Source: Atopobacter sp. AH10 (lineage in GTDB: Bacteria; Bacillota; Bacilli; Lactobacillales; Aerococcaceae). From it: a stretch of DNA of 64,000 nt. The position numbers were made by a program, and so were the translations under genes. Positions 9,346-10,861 of the stretch are shown here, one piece after another. The notes below the pieces were generated by a model. The model saw nothing but the letters and a program-made list of their open reading frames with translations. It was not told the origin of the DNA and did no database searches. The DNA lies in the NCBI RefSeq assembly GCF_003664595.1, contig NZ_QXPZ01000002.1, positions 1 through 64,000 on the forward strand, in the 5' to 3' direction. Every line of letters starts with the position of its first letter. The first letter of the stretch is position 1.

Positions 9346-9397
9346 TTCTTGACCTTCCTCGTAAAAAGTGAAAAAATAGGAAGCAAGTAAATCACTA

Positions 9398-9490
9398 TAA
9401 GGGAATGAATGTCTCCCTCAGTTTCAACTGAAACCGCATAAGAATGCTGATGACTTCTACAAGCTTATTTGGCTTGTAGAAGTTTTTTGT
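9398..9490 (+). promoter_or_regulatory. fluoride riboswitch (crcB motif) with terminator platform
   Basis: Three hallmarks of the fluoride aptamer are present in order. First is a GGGA...UCCC stem (9401-9417) whose loop GAAUGUC can pair with the later GACUUC to form the pseudoknot. Second is AAACCGCAU-AAGA-AUGC. Third is CUGAUGACUUCUAC (9447-9460). The last segment is also the first arm of a perfect 12-bp terminator hairpin (9453-9464 with 9472-9483) followed by TTTTTTG. Ligand binding would sequester that segment and let transcription proceed. An extra small hairpin (UCAGUU/AACUGA) is inserted between the first two parts. The downstream gene is a cation:proton antiporter. Confirmation would be a covariance-model hit to the Rfam fluoride family. 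Confidence 0.85.
9453..9490 (+). terminator. riboswitch-controlled terminator
   Basis: ACTTCTACAAGC and GCTTGTAGAAGT form a perfect stem around a seven-base loop, followed by a T-run. The left arm overlaps the conserved 3' end of the fluoride aptamer. Confidence 0.9.
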
Positions 9491-9496
9491 TTTAAC

Positions 9497-9668
9497 TTGG
9501 AAAAATTTTCTGAGTTAGCTTTTAAAGCTTGCGGATTTAGCTTGGAAAAGTTTTTGGATTTGACTTGGAAAGCTTGTTGCCTTAGTTTACCAAAGTATTC
9601 GGATTTAGCTTGGAAAGCTTGTTGCCTTAGTTTACCAAAGCTTGCGGATTTAGCTTGGAAAAGTTTTT
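9497..9668. repeat. nested tandem repeats between riboswitch and antiporter gene
   Basis: Units of roughly 22 and 45 bases built from GGATTTAGCTTGGAAAAG and GCTTGTTGCCTTAGTTTACC recur five or more times. The array lies after the riboswitch terminator and stops just before the TTAGGAGG ribosome binding site of the next gene, so it is part of its transcribed leader. Confidence 0.75.
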
Positions 9669-9685
9669 GTTAGGAGGAAAAATTT

Positions 9686-10861
9686 ATGTTAGTTTCTACA
9701 GCACTTATTCTATTGACCGGTTTAGTCGTGGGCCGATTTTTTCAGCAACTGACTCTACCAAGACTTCTCGGCTACCTCATCACCGGTATTATTCTTGGGC
9801 CTTATGTGCTTAATGCTTTATCTAGCGATTTCCTTTCCCTGTCTAAAGATATTCGCCAAATTGCCCTTATTGTTATTTTGACAAGAGCAGGATTAACACT
9901 TGATCTTAAATCCTTAAAAAAAGCTGGTCGAATATCCTTCTTGATGTGTTTCCTTCCAGCTAGTGTAGAAATCCTAGCTTGTCTTATCTTCGCCCCACTG
10001 CTCCTAGATTTCTCTCTTCCTCAATCTCTTCTTTTGGGAGCTATTTTAGGAGCCGTCTCTCCAGCTGTAGTCGTCCCTCGTATGATCCAATTAAATCAAG
10101 CTGGCTATGGTAAATTAAACCATATTCCTCAAATTATATTAGCGGGATCCTCTATAGATGACGTCTTTGTCCTAGTTGTATTTGCAGCTGCTGTCGGTTT
10201 AAACCAAGGGCAAGATTTTTCACTGATGACTTTAGGTCAAGTCCCACTGGCTATTGTGACTGGCGCTATTTTTGGTGCATTACTTGCCACTAGTCTCAGT
10301 TGGCTTTTTAATAACTTTCCAACTCGTCCACTGGTAAAAGTTTTAACACTCCTTAGCTTTTCTTTCTTATTAATGGCGTTAGAAAATGTCTTAAAGGCTT
10401 ATCTTCCTTTTTCTGGTATGTTAGCCGTTATGAGCATGGCCTTATTCATGGGAAGACAGGACGATAAAAATCTCCCTCAATTAACCCATCTATATGGCCA
10501 ATTATGGGTAGCTTGTGAACTCTTCTTATTTGCCTTTGTAGGAACAGAAACCAATATCCAATTTGCCCTCTCCAATGGCTTTAAACCTCTTCTTCTCATG
10601 ATCGTCGCATTAGCCTGTCGAATGATCGGCGTTTACCTTTGCCTCTTAGGAAGCCCTCTTCAATTGAAAGAAAAGTTATTTACTATGGTCGCCTACTGTC
10701 CAAAAGCAACTGTGCAAGCTGCCATAGGTTCTATCCCTCTTTCTTTAGGTTTAAAAGGCGGAGATATCATGCTTTCCATAGCGGTATTAGCTATCCTATT
10801 AACAGCTCCAATCGGGGCTTTTGCTATCGACCGTCTCGCTCCTATCTGCTTAGATAAATAA
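9686..10861 (+). CDS. cation:proton antiporter (CPA family), fluoride-responsive
   Basis: The 391-residue protein has about twelve hydrophobic segments of the Na+/H+ exchanger fold. It starts with LPRLLGYLITGIILGPYVL, typical of CPA2/NhaP-like proteins. A paired-aspartate element GSSIDDVFVLV (Asp158-Asp159) lies where the transport aspartates are expected. It moves ions across the cytoplasmic membrane in exchange for protons. The fluoride riboswitch upstream suggests induction by fluoride, and antiporter genes are among the known riboswitch targets, but whether it exports fluoride itself or offsets acidification is unknown. The start has TTAGGAGG. A bidirectional terminator follows, and the suf operon faces it. 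Confidence 0.82.
   Translation: MLVSTALILLTGLVVGRFFQQLTLPRLLGYLITGIILGPYVLNALSSDFLSLSKDIRQIALIVILTRAGLTLDLKSLKKAGRISFLMCFLPASVEILACLIFAPLLLDFSLPQSLLLGAILGAVSPAVVVPRMIQLNQAGYGKLNHIPQIILAGSSIDDVFVLVVFAAAVGLNQGQDFSLMTLGQVPLAIVTGAIFGALLATSLSWLFNNFPTRPLVKVLTLLSFSFLLMALENVLKAYLPFSGMLAVMSMALFMGRQDDKNLPQLTHLYGQLWVACELFLFAFVGTETNIQFALSNGFKPLLLMIVALACRMIGVYLCLLGSPLQLKEKLFTMVAYCPKATVQAAIGSIPLSLGLKGGDIMLSIAVLAILLTAPIGAFAIDRLAPICLDK

Follow-up and report, generated by a model that had tools for sequence, protein, structure and literature searches.

The only fluoride riboswitch in the genome of Atopobacter sp. AH10 stands ahead of a gene for an SLC9B/NHA2-type cation/proton antiporter, and genomes that carry main-group antiporters of this type lack the fluoride exporter Fluc (CrcB): with three samples pooled, Fluc was above cut-off in 0 of 169 distinct main-group antiporter genomes (one genome, G081, being present in two of the samples). 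The locus lies in a stretch of 64,000 nucleotides, the whole of which is referred to here as the window. On balance the sequence comparisons lean towards an account in which the antiporter, induced through the riboswitch, would be the main fluoride defence of its host, would replace an exporter and would act by lowering ΔpH; the ΔpH mechanism is the less certain part of this explanation.

Table 1. Features of the riboswitch-antiporter locus, numbered from the first base of the window
Feature	Positions	Strand	Basis
Fluoride riboswitch aptamer (RF01734)	9392-9466	+	cmscan, 38.9 bits against a gathering threshold of 34
Small hairpin between the aptamer halves	9418-9431	+	predicted stem
Intrinsic terminator with T-rich tail	9452-9484	+	14-pair stem: 12 Watson-Crick pairs and a G-U pair at either end
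Leader tandem repeat of 45-base units (3.8 copies), downstream of the terminator	9491-9661	+	TRF
Ribosome-binding-like AGGAGG	9672-9677	+	read from sequence
SLC9B/NHA2-type CPA2 cation/proton antiporter, 391 aa, ATG start	9686-10861	+	PF00999; human NHA2 match

The match to the Rfam model is full length (model positions 1-64; E 2.9e-7 over the whole window by cmscan), and a covariance scan of the whole host genome returned it as the sole RF01734 match. A fluoride riboswitch with an overlapping terminator had been proposed in the initial annotation, which named the Rfam model and a survey of the genome for other fluoride riboswitches as checks; both elements stand, and the survey gave no riboswitch beyond that in Table 1. 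The 5' arm of the terminator coincides with the aptamer's conserved 3' segment, forming an overlapping expression platform, and the folding energy of 9440-9495 is -21.4 kcal/mol (z -6.3), a stability equalled by 0 of 200 shuffled sequences. The aptamer folded on its own is of unremarkable stability (z -0.48), and its identity is taken from the covariance score and conservation and not from fold stability. The element is laid out in the usual manner of a transcriptional ON switch. The small hairpin that separates the aptamer halves, at first read as a variation, proves to be the norm: it is predicted in all 45 of the riboswitches of the window's family that could be parsed, one of 46 being unparsable. 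A promoter-like site at 9349-9377 was considered and set aside, being at chance level (one found, 0.8 expected).

The element resembles the RF01734 class in its score above gathering, its conserved core and the overlap of the terminator with the 3' segment, but its leader is long and contains the 45-base tandem repeat ahead of the start codon; the element is otherwise ordinary. The distance from aptamer to start is 219-220 nucleotides, whereas the 45 other loci of the family span 43-134 (a range that omits the second fragment of a broken antiporter copy in G054). This is the longest leader among the family loci compared, and the tandem repeat accounts for the extra length. A stop-free frame of 90 codons (9401-9673) spans the repeat. 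Downstream of the antiporter the next long ORF is on the opposite strand, and the riboswitch therefore seems to serve the antiporter gene alone.

The call of a CPA-type antiporter downstream of the riboswitch was confirmed, with 138.6 bits to PF00999 (Na_H_Exchanger, CPA superfamily) against a curated cut-off of 26.2 (E 3.2e-40). The protein fell below the cut-offs of the NCBIfam models TIGR00932 (CPA2; 39.8 against 238.3 bits) and NF003716 (potassium/proton antiporter; 74.7 against 355 bits). Its nearest solved relatives by sequence are human NHA2 (SLC9B2, 7b4l; E 7.6e-38) and bison NHA2 (E 2e-34), followed by archaeal NhaP1 (E 1.1e-10). The predicted model (pLDDT 85.4) has the NhaA-type fold and superposes both on MjNhaP1 (Z 44.5, rmsd 2.7, 382 aligned) and on bison NHA2 (Z 37.4, rmsd 3.8, 380 aligned). 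The accessible text of PMC8850199 describes NHA2 as an electroneutral exchanger whose site is made up of Asp277/Asp278, a Glu214-Arg431 salt bridge, Lys459 and Thr461. These residues of the bison protein (D277, D278, E214, R431, K459 and T461) align with D158, D159, E95, R312, K340 and T342 of the antiporter, and all are kept in 169-171 of 171 main-group antiporter sequences (K340 in 170 and T342 in 169). These comparisons place the antiporter among the SLC9B/NHA2-type CPA2 proteins, and the conserved ion site points to electroneutral cation/H+ exchange. For all its closeness to human and bison SLC9B2, in overall sequence as in the Asp pair, the Glu-Arg pair, the Lys and the Thr, the bacterial protein lacks about 110 N-terminal residues, and with them the extra N-terminal helix of mammalian NHA2 (14 TM); its first residue pairs with NHA2 residue 113-114 in the alignment. 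It also differs in standing under a fluoride riboswitch.

The pairing of riboswitch and antiporter recurs in each sample of genomes. In that of the window's family (76 genomes, 49 with a riboswitch match and 58 with the antiporter) the two are paired in 46 of the 58 antiporter genomes, and the antiporter lies downstream at 46 of the 51 riboswitch loci examined, three weak matches at 22.3-23.6 bits (G061, G065 and G062 contig 11) having been left out of the classification. The remaining five loci are made up of one enolase gene, two CLC genes (~400 residues) and two weak matches. Upstream of 12 of the 58 family antiporters a riboswitch was not found even at a lax threshold. Among named genomes the riboswitch is present at 64 of 80 antiporter loci, 62 of these within 222 nt; the pairings come from Clostridia, Enterococcus, Megasphaera, Anaerococcus and one Bacteroidales MAG, and three Brachyspira antiporter loci in the same scan are without it. 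A third sample, 393 genomes of a Clostridia-type class chosen around the genome that holds a Terrisporobacter locus, has the riboswitch at 30 of the 39 antiporter loci scanned, which are not every match in its 68 antiporter genomes; one miss (L329) is uninformative since the locus ends ~45 bases upstream of the gene. No relative was found on viral contigs. The antiporter is mostly monocistronic, with no co-directional ORF starting within 80 nt downstream at 53 of the 73 loci with enough flank. On the antiporter tree riboswitch presence requires 29 changes, whereas 100 shuffles averaged 34 and never went below 30; parsimony thus implies frequent gain or loss.

The proposal of the initial annotation that the antiporter takes part in fluoride defence appears well supported by this pairing, conserved as it is across distant lineages. 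As a target, on the other hand, the antiporter does not stand out as unusual, since Na+/H+ antiporters are, according to the accessible text of PMC11139923, the next most common class associated with fluoride riboswitches after the exporters; targets of the crcB motif also include genes for K+ or Cl- transport (PMC2864571, accessible text). Several loci depart from the simple arrangement. At L177 (720-4179) the riboswitch heads an apparent operon of NifU-like, GGGtGRT and universal stress protein genes and then the antiporter. In the broken copy of G054 (L020) the riboswitch is followed by an antiporter split into two separate reading frames and a stop. Further riboswitch matches (G062 contig 6, L006 and L048) head an enolase gene and a GREGV-motif CLC.

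Fluc was not found in the host genome. In the window's family it is present in 0 of the 58 antiporter genomes and 9 of the 18 others (Fisher p 3.4e-7), the total thus being 9 of 76 genomes, eight of them over the cut-off. The main group in the class sample consists of the 68 matching genomes less six, of which four belong to a distant clade and two have weak or fragmentary matches; Fluc over cut-off was seen in none of these 62 genomes, compared to Fluc in 85 of the 331 others (84 of the 85 matches over cut-off; Fisher p 1.1e-7). When all 68 genomes are retained two have Fluc, both from the distant clade (p 6e-6). The named-locus search, which covered the genomes of the first 50 of the 80 loci, gave no Fluc over cut-off and one match below it (21.4 bits), and a tblastn search of the sequence flanking all 80 loci, using CLC-F and Fluc queries from the family, revealed neither exporter. 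Repetition of the Fluc absence in three separate samples argues against a phylogenetic accident, by which the lineages that inherited the antiporter would be without Fluc by chance and nothing would have taken over its function, as does genus g13, where each of seven genomes holds exactly one system with no overlap (antiporter in two, Fluc in three, CLC-F in two). However, antiporter and Fluc each cluster by genus in the window's family, and when labels were shuffled within genera neither the exclusion of Fluc (p 0.058) nor that of any known exporter (p 0.12) fell below 0.05. Shared ancestry may therefore carry part of the Fluc exclusion; that it should be the entire explanation is considered very improbable.

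CLC-F occurs together with the antiporter in 14 of the 58 family antiporter genomes, nine of them in a single genus, and the exclusion therefore applies to Fluc and not to CLC-F. Neither exporter is present in 44 of the 58, the window's genome included, while 14 of the 18 antiporter-less genomes have a known exporter and four have neither antiporter, Fluc nor CLC-F. The signatures of CLC-F given in the accessible text of PMC11139923 are GREGT/V, GNNLI/GMGLI and GEVTP. The possibility that the host has a CLC-F was ruled out, as its only CLC carries the chloride-type motifs GSGIP and GREGP.

Substitution of the antiporter for an exporter is proposed because the host has neither Fluc nor CLC-F and main-group genomes are without Fluc. 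In the presence of fluoride the aptamer would fold, the overlapping terminator would be blocked and the antiporter would be made; in this host it would be the main fluoride-inducible defence and a functional stand-in for the exporter. Fluoride crosses as HF and is trapped in proportion to ΔpH. Electroneutral exchange, with cation moving out and H+ in, would lower ΔpH, and its collapse would allow fluoride to exit as HF. F_in/F_out would settle at cation_out/cation_in at equilibrium, a relation that would favour K+ as the exchanged cation. Protection would then come from acidification of the Kef kind rather than from alkalinisation. Kef-type K+/H+ antiport protects through K+ moving out and H+ in; the likeness to it lies in this K+ exit and H+ entry, and is one of analogy alone. 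Fluc and CLC-F are both typical targets of fluoride riboswitches, whereas the antiporter, which seems to replace Fluc, belongs to an unrelated protein family.

Alternatively, the antiporter could have an accessory role in pH homeostasis: HF lowers the cytoplasmic pH on entry, and a riboswitch-run Na+/H+ antiporter would help to restore it beside a true exporter. This is the view published in PMC11139923 (accessible text), and in C. difficile a CLC gene and an NhaP-type gene are paired in an operon under a fluoride riboswitch (PMC11477304, accessible text). The distant antiporter clade (clade support 1.0) agrees with it too: the riboswitch is present in all four cases, and in three of the four genomes there is also Fluc (two) or a neighbouring CLC-F (one). 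The explanation fits this clade and C. difficile but fits poorly where an exporter is absent, as in the 44 family genomes with neither Fluc nor CLC-F; from weak-acid chemistry, a higher internal pH would there be expected to trap more fluoride. A purely accessory role is for these reasons considered rather unlikely. In two of the distant-clade genomes (L278 and L302) a purine riboswitch is found ~1.4 kb from the fluoride riboswitch.

A protein that carries fluoride itself, whether as an F-/H+ antiporter or as a cation-fluoride carrier, would form a further class of exporter, and the replacement pattern with Fluc would suit it. In other antiporters an acidic residue neutralises the positive half-helix dipoles, but the NHA2-type site is without it, having T461 in NHA2 (PMC8850199, accessible text); T342 and K340 are conserved in the bacterial group, and a site left uncompensated in this way could hold an anion. 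However, the cation/H+ residues D158, D159, E95 and R312 are likewise conserved and match those of NHA2, a Na+/H+ or Li+/H+ exchanger, and the accessible part of the literature searched shows no anion transport for the SLC9B-type group. Such carriage is thus improbable compared to the preferred reading of the antiporter as a stand-in that lowers ΔpH. More broadly, it is conceivable, if somewhat doubtful, that the SLC9B-type group would make up a third kind of bacterial transporter for clearing fluoride, next to Fluc and CLC-F, acting directly at the helix dipoles or by way of HF. If so, a bacterial protein of fluoride defence would have the same fold and ion site as human NHA2.

The fluoride riboswitch and its pairing with antiporters as a class are already known. 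In the accessible part of the literature searched, neither the SLC9B/NHA2 assignment of the riboswitch-linked group nor the near-complete exclusion of Fluc was found, and the same holds for fluoride transport by this antiporter group and for a test of function of the riboswitch-controlled antiporters, which are explained there as pH helpers. If the antiporters do replace Fluc in whole lineages, genomes counted as exporter-less would not be undefended, and the bacterial relatives of human NHA2 would have a physiological role.

In the class sample a CLC was matched by the CLC-F profile in 18 of the 62 main-group genomes, and most of those typed carry GREGA and are without a CLC-F signature. Not all clostridial matches to this profile are taken as CLC-F: among the CLC loci retrieved, the readable ones at or below 318.7 bits are GREGA-like or other and lack the signature, two loci being unreadable. 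Fifteen genomes are counted as CLC-F by a score of at least 318, with sequence motifs seen for six of them only. A clostridial CLC subtype common in the class sample (L267-L300) has GREGA, often with GTN or GTD, and no GEVTP. Another CLC (L153, 369-1355, in G025) carries the CLC-F signature GEVTP, yet has GRVGV at the usual position of the gating glutamate.
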